A stretch of 64,000 bases of DNA, from the NCBI GenBank assembly GCA_902596985.1, contig CACJWR010000001.1, positions 62,001 through 126,000 on the forward strand, given 5' to 3'. Shown here piece by piece: positions 17,435-36,723 of this stretch (the stretch's first letter is position 1; each line of letters starts with the position of its first letter). The stretch is from an uncultured Alphaproteobacteria bacterium (GTDB taxonomy: Bacteria; Pseudomonadota; Alphaproteobacteria; Rhodobacterales; Rhodobacteraceae). Both the position numbers and the translations under genes were made by a program. The notes beneath the pieces were generated by a model. That model was not told where the DNA came from and did no database searches. It saw only the letters and a list, made by a program, of their open reading frames with translations.

Positions 17435-17902
17435 TCAGTCTTCCGAAAGTGTCTTATTCACTTTCTTCCTCATTTGCTCGACTAATTTTGTGATATCTTC
17501 GGATATGGTCTCAGTTTTTTTTACCATTGCCATCAATTTCTCCAAATCCTTTGATAGTTCTTCGCTTTGCGCATTTGAATCAATGAGTCTCAAATGTGTT
17601 TTTCTTATCAACGCAGAAATAACCTTGTTCTTTTGTAAAAAACTGTCTATCGATCTTGCCGGAAGGAATAAGGCATGAACTTCATGCTCACCGGCAATTG
17701 CCGTTACCGAACGTGGCTTTTTTAAAACGAGCGAGGCATCACCAAAAATTTCATTCACACCCAGCCTATTAAGTTTTAGTCCACCTGATGTGTAAATGTA
17801 AACGTATCCAGACTTAATCAGATACGCACCTTCTGGGTTATCCCCTGCCTTGTAAATCTCTTCATTTGGCTGCCATATCACATGCTTTTCAGTTTTTTCC
17901 AT
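17435..17902 (-). CDS. Cyclic nucleotide-binding domain protein with C-terminal helical segment
   Basis: GAYLIKSGYVYIY...FGDASLVLKKPRSVTAIAG resembles a phosphate-binding cassette. Confidence 0.75.
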   Translation of the reverse strand: MEKTEKHVIWQPNEEIYKAGDNPEGAYLIKSGYVYIYTSGGLKLNRLGVNEIFGDASLVLKKPRSVTAIAGEHEVHALFLPARSIDSFLQKNKVISALIRKTHLRLIDSNAQSEELSKDLEKLMAMVKKTETISEDITKLVEQMRKKVNKTLSED

Positions 17903-24821: not shown

Positions 24822-25208
24822 GTGAAGATAAGTCAGGCAGCAAAATTATCAAGATTATCTGTAAAAACAGTCAGGTATTATGCAGATATAAAAATGGTTG
24901 AACCAGCAAGGGATATTCGATCTGGCTATAGAAACTACACTAATGATGACGTGGCAAAATTAAACTTCATTGGAAAAGCAAGACGCTTTAATTTCAGCAT
25001 TGAAGAATGTAGAGAGCTTCTTTCTTTATATCAGAATAAAAACAGATCCAGCAAAGAAGTAAAAAAACTTACTTTAGCCAAAATTGCTTCTATAGATGAA
25101 AAGCTTAAGGAATTTCATTCTCTCAGAAACGAGTTAAGTCACTTAGTTAATTGTTGTAATGGAGATGATCGACCCTCGTGCCCAATACTGGACGAGCTTT
25201 CAAAGTAA
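24822..25208 (+). CDS. MerR-family regulator, CueR-like copper sensor
   Basis: N-terminal MKISQAAKLSRLSVKTVRYYAD wHTH; C-terminal CCNGDDRPSCPILDEL resembles the CueR metal-binding loop; GTG start. Confidence 0.85.
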   Translation: MKISQAAKLSRLSVKTVRYYADIKMVEPARDIRSGYRNYTNDDVAKLNFIGKARRFNFSIEECRELLSLYQNKNRSSKEVKKLTLAKIASIDEKLKEFHSLRNELSHLVNCCNGDDRPSCPILDELSK

Positions 25209-25263
25209 TTATTTCTTTATGGTCAATCTGAGTTGATATAGATCACCAATCGGGATCCCTCTT

Positions 25264-27642
25264 CTAGGACTTATATTCAGTTGCATCTTTAAGTGCTCTA
25301 TCTAAATCAAACTGAGCCTCATCGGCTGTCCTGTCAGTTTCAGCTTCCTCTATTTCATCATCAATTATTTCATTATCTAAGGAGAACAAATTTATTTTTT
25401 CACGTGTGTTACCCGCGATCTTAGATAGTTCAAGCATAGAAGCCGTAATTTCTTCAGAGGAAACAGCATTTGACTCACCGATCCTCTCAAGATTATCAAT
25501 TGCACCTGAAACAGATACAGCCACTTCTTTCTGTTGATCAGTATGGCGATCCACTGTCATCATCATGCTCTCAATATTTTTAATTAAGCTATTAATGTTT
25601 TCCATCTCTGACTTCACTTTGTCCATTCTAGAAACGCTATCATTCGCTTTTTGCATTGCATCGTTAGTTAATGTACTAATATCTTTTACTGATTGCGAAG
25701 ATCTATCAGCGAGCTTACCTACCTCTGTCGCTACAACAGAAAAGCCTCTTCCTGCTTCTCCTGCTCTTGAAGCTTCGATAGAGGCATTAAGCGCTAACAT
25801 TGTTGTCTGCTGCGCTATTTCTTCAATAAGAGATGAAATTTCTGCTATCTTACCACTGTTTTCTGATACTTCATTGGCTAATTCAACCATCTTTTCAGTT
25901 TCATCTGAACCTTTCTTCGCAGTTTTAGACGCCTCTAAAGCGGCTTCACCAGTTTTCTTTGTACTCTCCTCAACTAACTCTCGAAGGTCTTCTGATTCCC
26001 GTACCTTTTCCTGAATATCTTGAGTGGCTTCCACTTGTGCTTTGGCCCCCTCAGCAACTTGCCCAACTGCATCTCCAGCTTGTGAGGCAGCAGTAGCTAT
26101 TTGATCAACGTCAATTAATATGTCTTTTAAAGTTACTGACAATTGTTCCAATGATTTTCCGATATGAACCGCGCATTCTTCAATGTCTCCCTTATAACCC
26201 TTTGGCAATCTTGCCATAAGATTACCCGATGAAACACTTGTGAAAAGCTCCTGTATATCTTTTAACGCTCTCTCAGTTACCTCCAGCATATTATTTACGG
26301 CTTTTCCTGCTTCTCCAATTTCATCTCTTCCGGGGTTTTTAATTCGTTTCGAAAAGTCCCCACTATTTGCAATATCATTTGTTATAGTAGTAAATTCTCT
26401 CATCGGGTTAATAATTGTCTGCCTTGCTACAAGAAACCCAATAGCAACAGCGGCTATGAGTCCTATTATAGCAAGGGTCCAGGTTGTTTCTATTCTTTGG
26501 TCAGTCAAAGATTGATTCTGATCAGATCTTGCATCTATATTTTTTCGAACGTCTTCAATCATAGAAGCTATAGAAGTGGAGGCCGATGATAAGCTAGAAG
26601 ACAAACGCGATTTTTCTATTTTTAGTTGCCTCAGTCGCTTATCGTCTCTCAACAACGCATCTACAAATTTAGGGTAAAAATCAGAGTATTTTTTTACAGG
26701 AGAAAGGAGCCTTTCGGAATAGTTTCCAATAAAATAATCACCAAAAATATTCTTAAAACTTTCGTTGTCCATATAATCTTTCTCAAAGCTTTGTTCTACC
26801 TTTGAAAGGTATGTTGTTAATGACTTTGCTTCCTCAATTTTTTGTTCAAGGTCTTTCAACAGTTGATCATCTTTTTGCATATATTGACCAAAGGTAAACG
26901 CTATAGCGTCTTGGATATTTTTTATCTCTTGGAAAACGGAATTTATATCAAGTAAAATAACTGGTATGCTTGGGAATCCACCCACGTTAGTGCTAATTTC
27001 CTCTACTTCACCAGCCACTGCGTCAGAATCAGTTTGAAAGGTGTAAGTAATTTCAAGTGATTTGGCAGTACCCTCCATTGAAATAGTAAGAGCTTTTTGC
27101 ACGCTCGAACTCATTGAAAACAACAAATCTCGTTGAGTAGATGCACTGAATTGTGTCATGCTTTGAATTTTTTTGGAACGGTCTTGAATTGTGGCTATAC
27201 CATTCTCTTTCAAAAATTTCAGGCTTTCAATTTGAAACGTAAGTTGCTCCTCACCTTCTGTAAGATCTGATTCATTCTCTGATTGTTGATTACTATCACT
27301 ACCTCCTGTAATAAACCTGGCTCTCTTACCTTCTAGAATATTAATCACCTCGGTTAGAGATTTTTGAAAGTTATTTTTTTCTGTTGAGAGTTTTTCAAAA
27401 TCCTGTGAGGCTAATGCCGCGTTTACAGCGCTATTTAAAACCCCCTCATTGATCAAACTTTTCCAATTATCTAGGGCCCGATCAGCATCATTCAACCGGT
27501 TAACTACCGACAAATCCTCACTGATAATTTCATTGTAACTAACTGATAATTCATCAAGGCTCTGACTGGCAAGCACCGAAATTATAATCGTTACTATCGC
27601 CAGTGGAACTAGATCGAGAAGCGACTTGGCTAATACTCTCAT
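25264..27642 (-). CDS. Methyl-accepting chemotaxis protein (two TM, HAMP, signalling domain)
   Basis: Signalling hairpin [45 protein letters not shown]2 [17 protein letters not shown] followed by a HAMP region. Confidence 0.92.
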
Positions 27643-27722
27643 TTAAGCGTCCTTTTTTTGCACTAATCAGGTTAGTTTATAGCTAGTGGTTCATCAATAC
27701 AAAATCTAAATAACAGGTATAT

Positions 27723-28433
27723 TCACCACTTTTTTTTCCAAAATATTGCATTTTTATATTTATTTCTCTCCCAATTGTCTTCAAAAATGTGAGGGTCTGT
27801 ATCACCTAGTATAAGGATCCCACCTGCTTTTACTCCATCCTTTAAAGAGTTAAGCGCCTTCTTTTTTCCTTTTATTGTCATGTGCAACAAAACATTTCTA
27901 CAATAGACTATATCAAATCCGCTACCGTAGGGACCATCCATAAGGTTATGAATATCGAATGAAATACCCCCTTTTTTTAGTGATGAAAATTTTACATCTA
28001 AACTTTTCTTATTATTGTTTAAATGTAGCTGACTTTGAGGAAGCTGCTCGTATTTTTTTAATGACTTGATTTCAGATTTTCTGAAAACAAAAAATGACCC
28101 CGATATAGCCTTTTCTATATATTTTCTGCTTAAATCAGTACCTACTAAATTTTTATCACTTATTGAAGAGAGCATTAATGCAGCAGAATATACCTCTTGC
28201 CCTGTTGAACATCCAGCGAACCAAATACTTGTTTTCTCGGTCGACATTTTTTTTACCAGTTCTAGGTGGGAGAAACTTCTAAAAAAATAGCTTTCGGGGT
28301 TGGTAAATAGATGCGCAATTTCATGAACATCTGAGGATGAAAGCAGCTGAATTTCTTTTTGCAAAAATCCAATGCTTTTTTGATCTAGTTTAAGACCAGT
28401 ATTTTCTATTAAATCCTTTGGGTTGTAATTCAT
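27723..28433 (-). CDS. cheR: CheR-type chemotaxis methyltransferase
   Basis: NPESYFFRSFSHLELV, IWFAGCSTGQEVYSAALML, FDIVYCRNVLLHM. Confidence 0.88.
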   Translation of the reverse strand: MNYNPKDLIENTGLKLDQKSIGFLQKEIQLLSSSDVHEIAHLFTNPESYFFRSFSHLELVKKMSTEKTSIWFAGCSTGQEVYSAALMLSSISDKNLVGTDLSRKYIEKAISGSFFVFRKSEIKSLKKYEQLPQSQLHLNNNKKSLDVKFSSLKKGGISFDIHNLMDGPYGSGFDIVYCRNVLLHMTIKGKKKALNSLKDGVKAGGILILGDTDPHIFEDNWERNKYKNAIFWKKKW

Positions 28434-28446
28434 TAAATTACTTTAA

Positions 28447-28782
28447 TCACAAGATCAAAATAGCTACTCTTTTATTATCAAGGCTAATAAATTTATATTT
28501 TTTTTCTAGGTATTGCCTGAAACCCATTGCATTAGATAAAATCGATCCAATTTCTTGCACTGGTTTGTTTTCCAGTGGAATCACCTTGCCATCGACCCTT
28601 AATAAGGAATACTTTGGCTTCAAGTTCTTGTATTTTTCGCTTTTACAAAACGCCACCAAGTCTTTGTCTTTAAACTTTCCTTCTTTTATTTTATCAATTT
28701 TATGCAGTTCTGAGGCTATCCAGGTATCACCCCAAAAGCCTACAATAAATGTACTTTTGTCCTTTTTAGGCAGCTCTTTCAT
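28447..28782 (-). CDS. Uncharacterised small protein inside the che cluster
   Basis: 111 aa ORF between cheR and cheA, overlapping the 3' end of cheA by 17 nt (coupled-operon arrangement); no family recognised. Confidence 0.6.
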   Translation of the reverse strand: MKELPKKDKSTFIVGFWGDTWIASELHKIDKIKEGKFKDKDLVAFCKSEKYKNLKPKYSLLRVDGKVIPLENKPVQEIGSILSNAMGFRQYLEKKYKFISLDNKRVAILIL

Positions 28783-30406
28783 TTATTTCAAATAGCTTCT
28801 CTAAGTTTGCTCTGAAAATGATGTTTCTATCTTGATCTACTGTAGTACCAGATACAAATGGTAGTTTTGACACTAAGGGATCAGGCTCATCAAATACATG
28901 TTCAGAATAGGAGAGTTTGCCTTTATAGCTTAAGGCAAAGGCTTTTTCGTTCATATTAATCAAAATTATCTTCTCTTCTAAATCATCAATATTTTCGGCT
29001 AAATTACCAAATAAATCGGACGCATTGTGTACAGGAATTATATTCTTTTCGTGTACGATGCTGCGGATGGTGGAATGCTTTTGAAAGTCAACCTGAGCGA
29101 CAGTTCTAATCCACTGTATGGACCGTGTTGGAAAGGCGTATATAGTCTTTAGATCACTCAAAACAAGACAATCCTCTGTACTTACTATATTTGGTATCCT
29201 TAAAAAAAATTTTGTACCAATGCCGGCATCAGAAACAACATTTATAGACCCCCCCAATGAGGAAATATTTTTCTTAACCACGTCCAATCCAACACCTCTA
29301 CCAGAGGTTTCACTTACATCACTCTTCGTCGAAAACCCAGGTTGAAAGATAAAATCATACACTTGTAAATCCGATAACTTCTTAATATCGTCATCCGAGA
29401 GCAGTTCGATTTGACGTAATTTTTCTTCAATTTTTTTCCTATCGAGACCTTTTCCATCATCGGAAACTGTTATTAAAAGACCATCTTTCTCCTTACTAAA
29501 GTCTAGATCAATCTTTCCGTTTCCTTTTTGTCCTCTTTCTTCATTTTTTTCTATACCGTGATCAACTGAATTTCTCAAAAGATGCATTAATGCGGACGAC
29601 AGCACATTAATAATTGTTCGATCTGCTCTTTCATTGTCTCCTGAAACACTAAACTCAATATTTTTATTTAAACTTGTAGCAGTTTCAAAAACATCTCTCT
29701 TCAAGCGTCGTATTAAGGAATTGACGGAGACCAGTCTAAGATCTGTGACTGCTTGATTTAATGTAGTGACTTCCGTTTGAAGAATATCTATTAATTTTTC
29801 TACATTTTCTATAGATTGTGCATTTTCCAGACTAAGTTTTGCCATGTTCTTCAAAACATTTACCTGTGAAGAAACTAGCCCTGCTTTATTAAACAAAAAA
29901 TCAATAGACTCCAAATCTACAGTTGCAAATCGATCACTCTTATCAGAAACTGAAATTTGATTATTGAATTCTTTTTGTTCAATGTTTTTTGAATTAATAT
30001 CCACTTGAAATTCGGTTGTTTCAATCGAAACAATGAGCTGCTTTGCAGCATCCAAATTTTCGTCGACTATTTCTTTTCTTTCCTGTGAAGATAATGATAT
30101 TACATTCTTTAAGACATCAATACACTTCAGTAATACACCCCTAATTTGATTATTAAGTAGCATTTCGCGAGATCTTATTTTATCAATAACATCTTCAATT
30201 AAATGGGTGAGTTCAAGGGTCTGACTCAGTCCAACTGTTCCGAAAAGACCTTTAAGAGAATGAAAGGCTCTAAATAATGAGTCTATTTTAGTCCCCTCAT
30301 TAGCATTTAAATTGGTATCAAGTAGAAGATCTTCGCTTGAGGTGCAGTGCTCCATTGCCTCTGTTTCGAACTGCAACCATATTTCGTTTAAAAAATCTCT
30401 TTCCAA
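28766..30406 (-). CDS. cheA: CheA-type chemotaxis histidine kinase
   Basis: HPt motif FRAFHSLKGLFGTVG; H-box-less HATPase with LMHLLRNSVDHGIE, DDGKGLDRKKI, TSGRGVGLDVVKKNI; C-terminal CheW-like domain. Confidence 0.93.
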   Translation of the reverse strand: MERDFLNEIWLQFETEAMEHCTSSEDLLLDTNLNANEGTKIDSLFRAFHSLKGLFGTVGLSQTLELTHLIEDVIDKIRSREMLLNNQIRGVLLKCIDVLKNVISLSSQERKEIVDENLDAAKQLIVSIETTEFQVDINSKNIEQKEFNNQISVSDKSDRFATVDLESIDFLFNKAGLVSSQVNVLKNMAKLSLENAQSIENVEKLIDILQTEVTTLNQAVTDLRLVSVNSLIRRLKRDVFETATSLNKNIEFSVSGDNERADRTIINVLSSALMHLLRNSVDHGIEKNEERGQKGNGKIDLDFSKEKDGLLITVSDDGKGLDRKKIEEKLRQIELLSDDDIKKLSDLQVYDFIFQPGFSTKSDVSETSGRGVGLDVVKKNISSLGGSINVVSDAGIGTKFFLRIPNIVSTEDCLVLSDLKTIYAFPTRSIQWIRTVAQVDFQKHSTIRSIVHEKNIIPVHNASDLFGNLAENIDDLEEKIILINMNEKAFALSYKGKLSYSEHVFDEPDPLVSKLPFVSGTTVDQDRNIIFRANLEKLFEINERAA

Positions 30407-30415
30407 TCCTCTAAC

Positions 30416-30835
30416 TCATCCAATTTGATCAAATAATGATTTTATCATAGCTATCAATTCGTTTCCTCTCTTTGCGGCTAACGAGGGATCAACAGCGCCA
30501 CTTGGCTTGTCAATAACTCCGTCAGCCGACAATTGCTTCACTTTAACAGAGTAGCTACTTCCAAGCTGAGCAAGCGATGAGACAATTATTACTTTAACAT
30601 CATGCTTTAATCTGATTTCTTTAAGCGCTTCAACACCATCCATAACCGGCATTTCAATGTCTAAAAGAATTAGGTCAACTTTATTAAGTTCTAGTAAGTC
30701 TAGTGCTTCTCTACCGTTCTCAGCTTCATAAATTTTGGAAAAAAACTTCATACCATCTACTATATTTTTTAACAAAAAACGCATAAGTTTGCTGTCATCA
30801 ACTATCAAAACTTTTCTATCTTTAATTTTATTCAT
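30416..30835 (-). CDS. cheY: CheY-type response regulator
   Basis: VLIVDDSKLMRFLLKNI, VDLILLDIEMPVMDGVEAL, VIIVSSL, and a K in the VIDKPSG loop. Confidence 0.9.
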   Translation of the reverse strand: MNKIKDRKVLIVDDSKLMRFLLKNIVDGMKFFSKIYEAENGREALDLLELNKVDLILLDIEMPVMDGVEALKEIRLKHDVKVIIVSSLAQLGSSYSVKVKQLSADGVIDKPSGAVDPSLAAKRGNELIAMIKSLFDQIG

Positions 30836-30838
30836 TTC

Positions 30839-31873
30839 CTATAACGCCGTTAAATATTTCTCTTGCAAAAGCTTACCTATGCTTTCTGGATCAGATACCG
30901 CAGAGTGGCACCCTTCGTTTATTATAGCCAGAGGCATTGTTCTCGCAACCGAAGTTTCGGGGGACTGAACATAAACGCTACCACCCATTCTATAATGTTC
31001 CCTCACGCCTTGTATACCATCATTACACAAGCCACTTAACACGACAACATCGGAGACCAGATCAATCAAATGTGCACTTAATAGAAAATTGTCTAAGTTA
31101 GGAGTAAAACTTCTATCCATCCTTAGATCCTCGTATTCTATATCTATATTATCTCCATTTCTAACCAATTTGGCATTGTAACCTCCTCGCAAAAGAACAA
31201 CTTTTCCGACTTGCATTGGTCCCTCAAACGTAAGAGGTTTGGTCTTCTCATCAACGACAGTATTAAACCGGTTTATTAGTACTTTTTCTATACCTAAAGG
31301 AATATGAATACCGATAACGATTGGAACTTCTATCTTGTCTGTAAACTCAAGAATTTTTTCTATTGGGCTTAATGAACCTGCGGAACCTATAATAGATATA
31401 AAGTCTGCCCTGTTTTTAACAACAGATTTGCTTAGATGATTTTCCGACGAAGTGGCTCTAATTTCTTTTTTCAAGATATTATCTTGAGTGAGAAAATTTA
31501 TGTATTTATCGATTTCTTTTTTTAAACTATTTATATCGAATCCTTTTCCTAAAGAATTTTTTTCAATAAATCCTATAGCGCCTGCTTTCAGAGCATCTAT
31601 AATTTTAGGCTGGTTCGATTTATGAAATGCGCTTATAAGCAAACACTTGGTTTTAGCTTCTCCACCGATAACTGTTTTTAAAAGTTGTAAACCATCTAAA
31701 ACTGGCATCTCGAGATCTGAAATTATTAAATCAACAGGATCTCGCGTATTTTTTTCCAAAGCAACTTTTCCGTTCTCAGCTTCCCAACAAAAATCCGTGT
31801 TAGACAAATCATTTAATATCTGCTTGATAACCATTCTTGTAAATTTTGAATCATCAACTACGGCAATTTTCAT
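30839..31873 (-). CDS. cheB: CheB-type response regulator methylesterase
   Basis: Receiver domain (VVDDSKFTRMVIKQIL, LIISDLEMPVLDGLQ) plus methylesterase segments IIGSAGSLSPI, IGIHIPLGIEKVL, LSGLCNDGIQG. Confidence 0.85.
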   Translation of the reverse strand: MKIAVVDDSKFTRMVIKQILNDLSNTDFCWEAENGKVALEKNTRDPVDLIISDLEMPVLDGLQLLKTVIGGEAKTKCLLISAFHKSNQPKIIDALKAGAIGFIEKNSLGKGFDINSLKKEIDKYINFLTQDNILKKEIRATSSENHLSKSVVKNRADFISIIGSAGSLSPIEKILEFTDKIEVPIVIGIHIPLGIEKVLINRFNTVVDEKTKPLTFEGPMQVGKVVLLRGGYNAKLVRNGDNIDIEYEDLRMDRSFTPNLDNFLLSAHLIDLVSDVVVLSGLCNDGIQGVREHYRMGGSVYVQSPETSVARTMPLAIINEGCHSAVSDPESIGKLLQEKYLTAL

Positions 31874-33258
31874 TGAGACATATCCAAAAGCCGCTGCTTA
31901 AGATTATCTTGATTTAGAAGATACATAGATTTGCCACTTACGCGCAGTTTACGTGCAGCAACTCCCTTAAACCTTGCATCAAAATATTCATCAGACTCCA
32001 ATAATGTTGAGTCAATTTGCATGTCGCTCAAGGAAGAAACCATTAAACCAAATTGAAAATTATTATAATCAAAAAATAGCACCTGCTGAGAATCCTTGGA
32101 ATTATTTAAGCCTAAGACAGTATTGAATTCAAAAATGCTATAAATTTTTCTATTGAACTCTGTATACATGAGATTTTTCTTACTGTTTTTGTTAACTTTC
32201 ATTAGTTTTATCGAATCGACCTTGAGCAACTGGCTCAACGGAAAAATAAAATTAAGGTCTCCTTCGTTTATTACTATGTTCTTCACTAAATTTTTTTGTC
32301 CACTTTCTCTCTTTAAAGATCTAAATGGCGAAAATGGTAAACTTTCAGTGAACTTCTTCAGTAAGTTGAGTTCAACAATATTTACCTGATTATTGTTGTT
32401 ATCGTAAAACGAATATAATGAGTGCTCCTCAAAGATGGAACCAAGCCTACGAAAATCCCAGTTATTTTGTCTTGAAATTTTCAATGAAATTTTCTTTATT
32501 GAAGCTGTATCAATCTCTGAAATATAGCAATCATTGTCAGTTGCAAAAGCTAAAACTTGATTATTACCTTTGTCATCGCTTGGAACAAAAACTTGAAATA
32601 TATTTTTTCTCTTTTCAGTTGATATTAAGGGACAAATAAGGTCATCAAAGTCGGCTAGAAAGAAGCCGTTGAAACTGTTTGTATCTAGTAACTTCACCGT
32701 ATCCATGTGATATACTCTTCTAACCTTGGTGAGATCAAAAGCAAAAAATTTACCATCTATATCAAATGTGAAGTATTTTTCTATTGTGGTTTTTTTTGAT
32801 TTTTCAAACTCAATTTCACCAACAGTGACCTTTTTCTCTTTTGGTGCCTCTAAAGAATTGTGTAGCTCCAAGTTCTTTACATCAATTACTTTTACCAATC
32901 CATAGTCATCCAAGTTTTCAATTTGAAAAATTTTCTCTTGTGATTTTTTGAGCAAAGAGTTGTTCTTCCCCTTGAGGGTACAAAAGCTCAAGATTTCATC
33001 TGCCAGAATGGCAAATTCATAATTCTCATCAGTGATAAAGATAGCGTATTTTGGTATGTCATCTTTTCTCTTTCTTTTACCGATAATGTGCCTCGGATCA
33101 ACTAACATAAAAACCTGCGATTTAAACTCAATTATACCTACCGCAGGCTTTTTTATGTCTGGTATATTGATTACATGATCTAAAGGTTGAATGCTGGAGA
33201 GAAAACCTTTTTCAATCGCTAACAGTTCATCGAACCTTCTAAATATTAAGAGATCCAT
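31870..33258 (-). CDS. Multi-CheW-domain scaffold protein (three apparent CheW-like segments)
   Basis: Three CheW-like segments at about aa 1-100, 155-260 and 315-460 (e.g. KPAVGIIEFKSQVFMLVDPRHIIG; YFTFDIDGKFFAFDLTKVRRVY; QVLFFDYNNFQFGLMVSSL); overlaps cheB by 4 nt. Confidence 0.65.
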   Translation of the reverse strand: MDLLIFRRFDELLAIEKGFLSSIQPLDHVINIPDIKKPAVGIIEFKSQVFMLVDPRHIIGKRKRKDDIPKYAIFITDENYEFAILADEILSFCTLKGKNNSLLKKSQEKIFQIENLDDYGLVKVIDVKNLELHNSLEAPKEKKVTVGEIEFEKSKKTTIEKYFTFDIDGKFFAFDLTKVRRVYHMDTVKLLDTNSFNGFFLADFDDLICPLISTEKRKNIFQVFVPSDDKGNNQVLAFATDNDCYISEIDTASIKKISLKISRQNNWDFRRLGSIFEEHSLYSFYDNNNNQVNIVELNLLKKFTESLPFSPFRSLKRESGQKNLVKNIVINEGDLNFIFPLSQLLKVDSIKLMKVNKNSKKNLMYTEFNRKIYSIFEFNTVLGLNNSKDSQQVLFFDYNNFQFGLMVSSLSDMQIDSTLLESDEYFDARFKGVAARKLRVSGKSMYLLNQDNLKQRLLDMSQ

Positions 33259-33412
33259 TGTATTTAATTTTTTTTCATAGTGATATTTCAGGTAATACTA
33301 TCTTCGAGTTGACTAAAAAAAAAACAAAAAAAGTATATCATGTTTGAATAAAAAATTGATTTGATAGTTAAATTACGTATAAGTTAGTCTCAAATTTGAA
33401 CTGCAAAAAATT

Positions 33413-33757
33413 ATGAAAATTGGTCACAATTTTATTAAAAACCTATTCCATTCTACCATAATAAAGGTGGAAAAAGGTAATCCTATTCCTCTTGGAAACC
33501 ATTTCTTCTTTATAAATAATGGAAAAGTTTCAGGAAAGATAGGAGCAAAGAAACATATACCTTTTTCTGCTCAGAGTGGTCAGTTTTTTTGTTTGAAACA
33601 ATTGATTGATCCAGACGAAAAAGTTGTAAATGCAGTTGCAGAAACAGATCTCGATTTAACAATAATAAATTTTTCAGAACTTGAAAAATTGCTCAAAGGC
33701 ACTGATAAAAACTTAAGTGCATTAATCAAGTCTCTGATTTCACAAGGTATTTATTAA
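33413..33757 (+). CDS. Small cyclic-nucleotide-binding-like (cupin-fold) protein, degenerate
   Basis: IIKVEKGNPIPLGNHFFFINNGKVSGKIG...FSELEKLL resembles a cNMP-binding fold without a clear phosphate-binding cassette; divergent from the che cluster. Confidence 0.5.
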   Translation: MKIGHNFIKNLFHSTIIKVEKGNPIPLGNHFFFINNGKVSGKIGAKKHIPFSAQSGQFFCLKQLIDPDEKVVNAVAETDLDLTIINFSELEKLLKGTDKNLSALIKSLISQGIY

Positions 33758-34641
33758 TGTCTTCCGATTTTGATTTTGGAGAATTTCTTGATGAATCAAA
33801 TCAGTCTGACTTGATGATCCTATGTTTGGACTTATTTGGTATCTTGACAAAATTCCAAGTTGATCACAATAAGCTGGAAGCAGCAAAGATCGAGATTTTA
33901 AATAATCAATTAACAAAAAATTTTGAAGGTTTCAGGTCTGCAATATCAAATCTTTCAGGTGGGGATAAAAGTTCACAAATTAATTCAATGAAACACATTA
34001 ATTTGATGGTTGATACTTTAGTTGGAGATTCAAAAAGTACGGAAAAATTTACGAAGATCGAGAAGGATGTAAAGGAATCAATCGATAGATTAATAAAGGG
34101 CATTGATTCAAATGGTGATTTATTCAAGTTAGTCCAAGTTTACAATTTTTTACCCAATAAAAAAGAGATAGCAATATTATTGGGGCGTATCACTGATTAT
34201 GAGCTGAAAGAGGCTAAGACGATGGAAAAGGTGAAATCTGCATTGCTTAAAGATGACGTTGAGGTGTTGCTTTCCAAAATTCTTTCTGAAATTTCAGACG
34301 AAAGTGCTTCTGGCTTTATTTCCGATAATATTGCAGATATTTTTCAGAGGAGAGGGGTTGACTTTCACATCGCAGGCCTTGTCACAAAAGAGTCCCTTGA
34401 AAATTTAAGTGATGAGCAACTTAAAAATAACGTTCTTCTTATGGTAAATTTTAGCGAGGATATATTCACATCAAATCCGGAATTTCTAGAGAATATTCAG
34501 TCTGATACCAACGTATTAACAAGCACTTCCGGTGTAGATAAAGATACCTTTGACATGTTGCTTCTCTTGAAAAATGAAAGAAGGGGAGATATGTTCGACA
34601 AATATCCAGTGAAAGTCAAAGAATATAGTGTGTTTAAATGA
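33757..34641 (+). CDS. Uncharacterised, largely helical protein linked to the che locus
   Basis: 294 aa ORF; start overlaps the preceding stop (TAATG), end overlaps the next start (ATGA); no family recognised. Confidence 0.65.
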   Translation: MSSDFDFGEFLDESNQSDLMILCLDLFGILTKFQVDHNKLEAAKIEILNNQLTKNFEGFRSAISNLSGGDKSSQINSMKHINLMVDTLVGDSKSTEKFTKIEKDVKESIDRLIKGIDSNGDLFKLVQVYNFLPNKKEIAILLGRITDYELKEAKTMEKVKSALLKDDVEVLLSKILSEISDESASGFISDNIADIFQRRGVDFHIAGLVTKESLENLSDEQLKNNVLLMVNFSEDIFTSNPEFLENIQSDTNVLTSTSGVDKDTFDMLLLLKNERRGDMFDKYPVKVKEYSVFK

Positions 34642-34967
34642 GTGGATCAATTGAACCGATAGTTCCTGGACAAGTTATCTTTGATATAGGTCAGCAAATC
34701 GACAAGTGTTTTATACTTCAAAAAGGTTCAGTTCATTTTTTTAATAGTAAAGAAGAGAAGATTAGTGGCATAGCTCCTAATACAATGTTTGGATTCACTG
34801 AGCTTGTAAAAGGTAAAACAACCCATAGCACAAAAGCAGTTTGCATTACACCTGGAACAGTTGTTTCATTTTCATCTGACGTTATTAAAACAAAGCTATC
34901 AGCGTATGGTGAGGATAATAAATTACTTTTAGAAAGTTTAGCTGACCAACTGCTTAACAAGATCTAG
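34638..34967 (+). CDS. Cyclic-nucleotide-binding-domain-like protein, degenerate
   Basis: VPGQVIFDIGQQIDKCFILQKGSVHFFNSKEEKISGIAPNTMFGFTELVKGKTTHSTKAVCITPGTVVSF: cNMP-domain pattern lacking the usual E...R(S/T)A cassette. Confidence 0.6.
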   Translation: MSGSIEPIVPGQVIFDIGQQIDKCFILQKGSVHFFNSKEEKISGIAPNTMFGFTELVKGKTTHSTKAVCITPGTVVSFSSDVIKTKLSAYGEDNKLLLESLADQLLNKI

Positions 34968-35186
34968 ATAAACACATTTTTTTTTTCGACTAATAGTAAT
35001 TTTGTTATCTTTTACAGACGATAATAAGTCACCAAATTAGAAACCCAGTTTTTTAAAAACGATGAGATGTGCGACATTAACGGCAACGGTTTTCATTAAA
35101 TTAAGCTTAGTAAAGGTTTTTGACTGGGGTCAATATTTACACGGTGAGGGTATTTTTCGCTTAACGCTTCTAATTTTAGAAAAATG

Positions 35187-35435
35187 CTAGCAACAGCTAC
35201 AAGAACCAGACCGCTTTTTTTCTACCGATTTAGTTTTTATTGTTTTTTTTAATTTAGTTTTATTGGCTTGATCCGCTTCTAATGCTTTTGCTTCTTTTGC
35301 AATTTTGTCTTCAAAATACTCATAAAGTGACTCAAACCCTAACTTTGCCGCTCTCTTTTCTTCATAAGGTTTTCGCCCACGAAGGTTTTCAATCCGCTCC
35401 AATATAAGTTCATCTTGCATACTCGACATTAACAA
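35187..35435 (-). CDS. Small hypothetical protein with Cys-rich C-terminus
   Basis: 82 aa, Lys-rich, ends SGSCSCC; next to the zinc locus. Confidence 0.45.
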   Translation of the reverse strand: MLMSSMQDELILERIENLRGRKPYEEKRAAKLGFESLYEYFEDKIAKEAKALEADQANKTKLKKTIKTKSVEKKRSGSCSCC

Positions 35436-35521: not shown

Positions 35522-36691
35522 TTAGAAGCACTTAGCCAAGTTAGTTGCCAAGTTTCGAATGAGGTTTTCATATAGACTTGGGCCAGCCTCCAAGTTAACT
35601 CCCAATGGATCAATAACAGTAGTGTTTGCCTTAGTCCCTTCAATAACAGCTTTTACTGTACCCTGATTATATTGTGGCTCTGCAAGCACACACTCCACAG
35701 CTTCATCTACCACTCTTTTGCGTATTTCAGCTAGGCGGCTGGGACTTGGATCAGAAGCATCTCCCAATGAAATTGCTCCAGAGGCACTTATACCAAAATC
35801 TCTTTCAAAATATTGGTAAGCATCATGAAAAACGACAAATTTCTTGTCTCTCATTGGGTCTAATATTGAATTTACCTCAGATACCAACGAATCAACATTA
35901 TCTCTAGCCGACTTTGCATTCGAGAAATATTTTGCAGCATTATCTGGATCCACTTCAGATAACTTGGCGGCAATAACGTTTAACCATACCTTCGCGATTT
36001 GTGGCGACAGCCAGGCATGGGGATCGTGCTCTCCATGAGCATGACCTTCGTGGTCATCATGATCATCGTGGTCGTCATGTTTCTTCTTACCATGGTCGTG
36101 GTCATCGTGATCATCATGGTCGTCATGTTTCTCCTTACCATGGTCGTGATCATCATGGTCGTCATGTTTCTCCTTGCCATGGTCGTGGTCATCGTGATCA
36201 TCATGGTCGTCATGTTTCTCCTTGCCATGGTCGTGGTCATCATGATCATCATGGTCGTCATGTTTCTCCTTACCATGGTCGTGGTCATCGTGATCATCGT
36301 GATCGTCATGGTCCCCGTGATCATGTGCTTCAAACAATGCTCCTTCACGGAAACTTAGGAGTTTTATACCATCAACGCCTAGAAGAGACGTTATCGAAGC
36401 ATCTTGTGTTAGGCTCGATAATCCCTTTTCAAGCCATGGTGTAAGGTCTTCCCCTATCCAAAAAACAATATCTGCGTTCTGTAATGATTTTGCGTTCGAG
36501 GGTTTAAGTTGGTATTCATGGGGAGACGCTCCTGCCGGAATAATCAAGTCCGGTTTACCAACACCATTCATTACTTTAGAAACCAAAGAATGGACCGGTG
36601 CAATATCTACAGTTACCTTTGGCACATCTGCAACGAGCATGCTGGTGCTTAAAAGAAATGCTGACGTTGTTGAAAGAAATTTATTAGACAT
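35522..36691 (-). CDS. znuA: Zinc ABC transporter substrate-binding protein with extended His/Asp-rich loop
   Basis: VTVDIAPVHSLVSKVMNGVGKPDLIIPAGASPHEYQLKPSNAKSLQNADIVFWIG, HDPHAWLSPQIA. The ATG at 36691 has GGAGAG upstream and is preferred over the track start 36703. Confidence 0.93.
   Translation of the reverse strand: MSNKFLSTTSAFLLSTSMLVADVPKVTVDIAPVHSLVSKVMNGVGKPDLIIPAGASPHEYQLKPSNAKSLQNADIVFWIGEDLTPWLEKGLSSLTQDASITSLLGVDGIKLLSFREGALFEAHDHGDHDDHDDHDDHDHGKEKHDDHDDHDDHDHGKEKHDDHDDHDDHDHGKEKHDDHDDHDHGKEKHDDHDDHDDHDHGKKKHDDHDDHDDHEGHAHGEHDPHAWLSPQIAKVWLNVIAAKLSEVDPDNAAKYFSNAKSARDNVDSLVSEVNSILDPMRDKKFVVFHDAYQYFERDFGISASGAISLGDASDPSPSRLAEIRKRVVDEAVECVLAEPQYNQGTVKAVIEGTKANTTVIDPLGVNLEAGPSLYENLIRNLATNLAKCF
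36050..36318 (-). repeat. In-frame tandem repeat, about 48 bp / 16 aa (KHDDHDDHDDHDHGKE), in znuA
   Basis: About five consecutive near-identical units, one shortened by 39/48 bp (13 aa), plus degenerate flanks. Confidence 0.9.
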
Positions 36692-36723
36692 TTTGCTCTC
36701 CATAAGGTATTTAAACTGATAGT

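Follow-up and report, generated by a model that had tools for sequence, protein, structure and literature searches.

A three-gene set with degenerate cyclic nucleotide-binding domains as an apparently undescribed accessory module of a multi-CheW chemosensory locus

In this study, we analysed three coupled genes (ORF1, ORF2 and ORF3, hereafter the trio) located next to the chemotaxis (che) cluster of an uncultured alphaproteobacterium, and we found that they form a genuine and apparently undescribed accessory module of its chemosensory system. All positions refer to the window, that is, the whole 64,000-nucleotide stretch that was analysed. The membership of the trio in the che locus is firm. 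With regard to function, we lean towards the trio encoding a dedicated accessory complex of the multi-CheW chemosensory system in marine Alphaproteobacteria, in which two cyclic nucleotide-binding domain (CNBD) proteins would be bridged by a fast-evolving linker. The trio travels with the sole che cluster of these marine bacteria, and it would thus represent parts of the system that have been overlooked by annotation. No description of it was found in the open-access literature.

Gene organization and linkage to the che cluster

The features of the locus are listed below with position, strand, description and basis.

33413..33757 (+): ORF1, 114 aa, degenerate protein of predicted CNBD fold (Pfam match below cut-off, AlphaFold2 and Foldseek, dN/dS)
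33757..34641 (+): ORF2, 294 aa, predicted to be mostly helical, without Pfam, NCBIfam or PDB match, kept in eight genomes
34638..34967 (+): ORF3, 109 aa, CNBD without the Glu and Arg of the phosphate-binding cassette (PBC) (PF00027, dN/dS, cross-genus identity)
33259..33412 (no strand): divergent intergenic region separating ORF1 from the multi-CheW gene and conserved in relatives
31870..33258 (-): multi-CheW protein, 462 aa, three CheW stretches (PF01584)
30839..31873 (-): CheB, receiver plus methylesterase (Pfam)
30416..30835 (-): CheY-like response regulator (Pfam)
28766..30406 (-): CheA, 546 aa, the sole CheA found in the genus (Pfam and genus search)
28447..28782 (-): small protein, 111 aa, divergent NOV3845Y relative (NF052409, 24.9 bits, below cut-off)
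27723..28433 (-): CheR (Pfam)
25264..27642 (-): methyl-accepting chemotaxis protein (MCP), 792 aa (NCBIfam MCP-family matches)
25216..35186 (no strand): presence/absence island of che cluster plus trio, missing from congeners G004, G006, G009 and G014

The earlier note had described three translationally coupled ORFs diverging from the che cluster across about 150 bp, and every element of that description holds: ORF1 and ORF2 meet in TAATG, ORF2 and ORF3 in ATGA, and 154 bp separate ORF1 from the divergent multi-CheW gene. Viewed from the trio side, the minus strand carries multi-CheW, CheB, CheY, CheA, the 111-aa protein and CheR, followed by the MCP. The three ORFs are real genes, since orthologues are present in seven genomes of the genus and in one genome of another genus and their dN/dS ratios are well below 1. 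A promoter scan of 33259..33412 returned sites no more numerous than in shuffled sequence, and a search for RNA elements found none.

We detected CheA in 8 genomes out of 22 in the genus and the trio in 7 of those 8, the contig of the remaining one (G002) stopping within the multi-CheW gene; the genomes of this genus are partial, and absence alone is weak evidence. Stronger information came from four che-minus congeners (G004, G006, G009 and G014), from which the block 25216-35186 is missing as a whole, homology to the window breaking at about 25208-25215 and resuming at 35187. The MerR gene (24822-25208) directly abuts sequence homologous to window position 35187 onward in G006, G009 and G014, and G004 shows the same empty-site pattern up to a later insertion of other genes. 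In G012, iron-transport-type genes fill the interval between the MerR and zinc-transport genes. Because of these different contents in G004 and G012, the site between the MerR and zinc-transport genes is an insertion hotspot. Its content varies among congeners: che genes with the trio in some, a pair of CobW-type genes or iron-transport-type genes in others, and nothing in yet others (window 25216-35186; L096:13614-15985; L098:1409-4625). The window also encodes a ZnuA-like protein (35522-36703, minus strand) in which a His/Asp-rich tandem repeat, HDDHDDHDHGKEK, varies in length among congeners.

One further ORF2 turned up when 397 genomes belonging to the family were searched, in a genome of another genus (G438), and among 385 genomes across the class no trio was found beyond the window's own. 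The order in G438 is MCP, CheR, small protein, CheA, CheY, CheB and multi-CheW, then the divergent ORF1-ORF2-ORF3, with one extra AMP-ligase-type gene between MCP and CheR; the flanking genes are different, and the locus occupies another genomic place. Identities between the window and G438 proteins were 73% for ORF3, 61% for CheY, 59% for ORF1, 46% each for CheA, MCP and CheR, 41% for CheB, 34% for ORF2, 28% for multi-CheW and 25% for the small protein. ORF3 is therefore the best-conserved protein of the locus between the two genera and ORF1 the third after CheY, both ranking above CheA, in a comparison of the only two genera from which the trio is known and which offer few independent evolutionary tests.

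All eight trio-containing genomes (seven in the genus plus G438) carry che genes alongside it, and che cluster and trio form a single genetic unit. An operon on the divergent strand without known function could also be an unrelated neighbour of the che genes; however, the joint presence and absence, the same order at different loci in two genera and the adjacency to che genes in 8 of 8 cases make this highly improbable, and the empty-site comparison together with the second genus largely refutes it. The earlier note had proposed a dedicated output or adaptor module of the chemosensory array, to be examined by co-occurrence across genomes. As a genetic unit the proposal is well supported, with a shared island, co-occurrence of trio and CheA, che genes next to every trio homologue found and the same order in the second genus; the array role itself belongs to the graded readings given below.

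This type of che operon is known in part, because its small protein is related to the published NOV3845Y. In its passages on NOV3845Y, the FESNov catalogue paper reports that this protein was chosen from uncultivated alphaproteobacteria (UBA8309) for its position in a che operon and that its expression in Escherichia coli led to a larger swimming halo (PMC10849945). The UBA8309 operon resembles the G438 locus in having a NOV3845Y protein within the che operon; those passages concern NOV3845Y alone (PMC10849945), and the trio is a feature seen here on the G438 side. The G438 small protein (L158:5829-6140, minus strand) scored 173.8 bits against NF052409, above the cut-off of 140, and the window protein (28447-28782) scored 24.9 bits, which is below the cut-off and marks it as a divergent relative; a profile built from the window family nevertheless finds the G438 protein (E 1.9e-8).

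Multi-CheW clusters of other alphaproteobacteria share the MCP-CheR-multiCheW-CheB-CheY-CheA content and order with the window. The trio was not found beside those that were examined (e.g. L063, L075 and L082), and therefore it is not needed for multi-CheW systems in general.

Fold and conservation of the three proteins

The earlier note regarded ORF1 and ORF3 as minimal cyclic nucleotide (cNMP)-binding beta-barrels, and the structural and profile evidence agrees. ORF3 matched Pfam PF00027 with 40.2 bits (39 bits for its G438 orthologue), over the cut-off of 27.5, which ORF1 (19.3 bits, E 0.0012) and its G438 orthologue (17.2 bits) did not reach. In a profile-profile comparison, ORF1 was related to the CNBD profile with a probability of 92% (E 6e-7). 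The AlphaFold2 model of ORF1 has a helix, beta-strands and a second helix at a pLDDT of 74, the input being seven close sequences and the other four models scoring lower. When this model was compared with the PDB by Foldseek, 291 matches had E<=0.001 and the best 50 matches listed were essentially all CNBD proteins; the top CNBD matches had a probability of 1.00 and TM values (query) of 0.50-0.67, the best being the Bdellovibrio EAL enzyme Bd1971. On the basis of this model, which contains the beta-roll, ORF1 is assigned to the CNBD fold. Thus, neither of the outcomes that the earlier note had held to count against its proposal, namely homologues mostly away from che genes or predictions lacking a cNMP-like barrel, was encountered.

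Both proteins have the helix-beta-roll-helix order common to the CNBD or CRP/FNR fold (PF00027; Bd1971, NtcA, and PKA and PKG regulatory domains), but they differ from those CNBDs in being single-domain and che-linked, without a DNA-binding or enzymatic partner and without the PBC Glu and Arg. No Pfam match to a C-terminal helix-turn-helix (HTH) was observed in ORF1 (114 aa) or ORF3 (109 aa), and neither is a CRP/FNR-type transcription factor by this feature. Within the genus, dN/dS was 0-0.06 for ORF3 and 0.11-0.31 for ORF1. The pocket region of ORF3, NTMFGFTELVKGK, is a long run that is invariant yet non-canonical. In ORF1, the C-terminal helix, GTDKNLSALIKSLISQGI, is nearly invariant, and so are the last 18 residues between the window genus and G438.

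We aligned ORF1 and ORF3 from both genera with 11 other CNBDs, three of them single-domain proteins from the genome of the window (17435-17902 and proteins on contigs 39 and 21). The canonical pattern in this alignment is G-E/D...R-S/T, and all 11 comparators retain the Gly-Glu/Asp and the Arg. This includes the protein at 17435-17902, whose cassette is intact (FGDASLVLKKPRS), as the earlier note had read it. In ORF3 the pair is Gly-Phe, and Thr, Ser or Glu stands at or beside the place of the Arg, where the alignment leaves an ambiguity of one residue. In ORF1 the pair is Cys/Ser-Leu, and both genera have a conserved Lys in place of the Arg. The absence of the normal Glu/Arg cassette from ORF1 and ORF3, as had been noticed from the window alone, therefore extends to both genera, and because both residues are replaced, canonical cNMP binding by these proteins is unlikely. 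Elsewhere in the window's genome, an intact-cassette single-domain CNBD lies beside a LipJ-like hydrolase-adenylate cyclase (L105:3865-5613), and another beside an MBL-fold hydrolase-like gene (L106:6314-7459).

ORF2 had been described as helical with no recognised family, and the searches bear this out. It was predicted with low confidence to be mostly helical with some strand in the final third, and Pfam, NCBIfam and PDB searches assigned it to no known family; its AlphaFold2 model (pLDDT 41) was uninformative. Within the genus its dN/dS was 0.16-0.32. The first 12 residues (MSSDFDFG-FLD) are identical at 11 of 12 positions between the window and G438, versus 34% over the whole protein. By sequence comparison, ORF2 thus appears unrelated to known families and diverged everywhere except in this peptide. 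Four weak matches found across the class (E 0.0015-0.007) were judged to be due to chance; three of them lie in AAA proteins of the CobS type, which have an LNYLP motif in common with ORF2, and the fourth lies in an ORF of the pseudouridine-synthase type. Likewise, PDB matches to Galpha(s) were rejected (E>=0.1), and plasmid records gave no match to ORF2.

Proposed function and competing readings

In the complex that we slightly favour, the two CNBD beta-rolls of ORF1 and ORF3 would serve as protein-protein interaction modules that are either ligand-free or occupied by a non-cNMP ligand. ORF3 may make contact at its former ligand pocket, where the surface is conserved, and ORF1 through its conserved C-terminal helix, and ORF2 may be the fast-evolving linker that bridges them. 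The acidic-aromatic N-terminal motif of ORF2 could dock on a conserved partner, such as CheY, the CheA/multi-CheW array or ORF3. Such a complex might act by tuning or positioning the array or the CheY output that runs from it to the flagellum. A functional analogy, and nothing beyond it, exists with the array-tethering proteins ParP/ParC of Vibrio, which are outlined as a dedicated accessory that integrates into or positions the array (PMC5706961).

These small conserved CNBD proteins lacking the cNMP cassette offer a handle on the role of the fold after cyclic-nucleotide sensing ends. Chemotaxis arrays are built of few part types. We consider it possible, albeit somewhat doubtful, that two CNBD proteins no longer binding cNMP now serve the array as core subunits, structural or regulatory, and are joined by an undescribed linker, which would make them a type of array component that is not known from other chemotaxis systems.

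The conserved pocket of ORF3 also allows a different reading, in which ORF3, and perhaps ORF1, senses a small molecule other than cAMP or cGMP and passes metabolic state to the array through ORF2. The length and invariance of the pocket segment, despite its non-canonical sequence, would fit a sensor, as would the Lys held at the Arg position of ORF1 in both genera. NtcA, whose CNBD binds and senses 2-oxoglutarate, is among the nearest PDB and NCBIfam profiles of ORF3. However, this similarity is weak (E about 0.0001-0.001, and 0.0077 for the G438 orthologue) and ORF3 has a variable residue (T/S/E) opposite the phosphate-binding Arg, and we regard such sensing as rather unlikely. It is quite improbable that ORF2 is a CheY-P phosphatase or CheY-binding factor that replaces CheZ or CheX and is regulated by the CNBD proteins. 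Among the cluster ORFs we saw none for CheZ, CheC, CheX or CheD, the low-confidence helical prediction would suit such a role and the invariant acidic-aromatic peptide is compatible with docking to CheY; on the other hand, ORF2 showed no match to CheZ (PF04344) at E<=1, inspection by eye revealed neither a conserved CheZ-like D-x-x-x-Q motif nor a conserved CheX-like E-x-x-N motif, its peptide differs from the FliM/CheZ consensus, and a phosphatase gene could be located elsewhere in the incomplete genome.

A similarly low probability is given to ORF2 as a very diverged member of F580, a family of about 580 aa, the trio then corresponding to a split F580-CNBD protein. By eye and by context this was promising: F580 is helical by appearance, it has chemotaxis or flagellar neighbours (CheY, or CheZ, FliM, FliL and MotB genes), and it has CNBD partners or fusions (G148 and G337). 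But F580 has an additional N-terminal region of about 75 aa and no detectable homology to ORF2. The hhalign probability was 0.1 with a 45-sequence profile, the ORF2 score in hmmsearch fell inside the range of shuffled sequences, and adding the G438 orthologue brought no gain, and the assignment was rejected.

Flagellar output and other motility-linked loci

The flagellum is the likely output, because FliG is present in the window organism and in genus genomes and no T2SSE-type ATPase was detected; no other candidate organelle of motility was found in the genus. Pili of the type IV or Tad kind were considered as an output and rejected, since none of the 15 genomes of the genus that were screened had a T2SSE-type ATPase scoring over the cut-off. 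FliG also occurs without detected CheA in six incomplete genomes of apparently flagellated relatives (G003, G004, G005, G008, G009 and G014), and two che-plus congeners yielded no FliG, so that flagellar output is no more than likely.

When 12 genomes were inspected for CNBD genes beside other alphaproteobacterial che clusters, the only case was in G087, where a CRP-type regulator that carries an HTH lies about 3 kb away from CheA; it was judged to be unrelated. F580 is found in 90 of 385 alphaproteobacterial genomes (loci L078:3493-5232, L070:3021-4751, L137:9597-11471, and L138:8450-10321 and L139:8406-10250, both on the minus strand). It adjoins the CheY of a chemosensory cluster in G143 and G416 and lies among FliL, FliM, CheZ and MotB genes in G223; in G148 and G337 the fused CNBD is C-terminal, and in G148 a CNBD-EAL gene follows. 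F580 is a motility- and cNMP-linked family worth separate study. In another alphaproteobacterial chemosensory cluster (G071, L063:11054-13567), a gene for a GAF-PAS-class III nucleotide cyclase is located right behind CheA and is followed by an OmpA/MotB-like gene.
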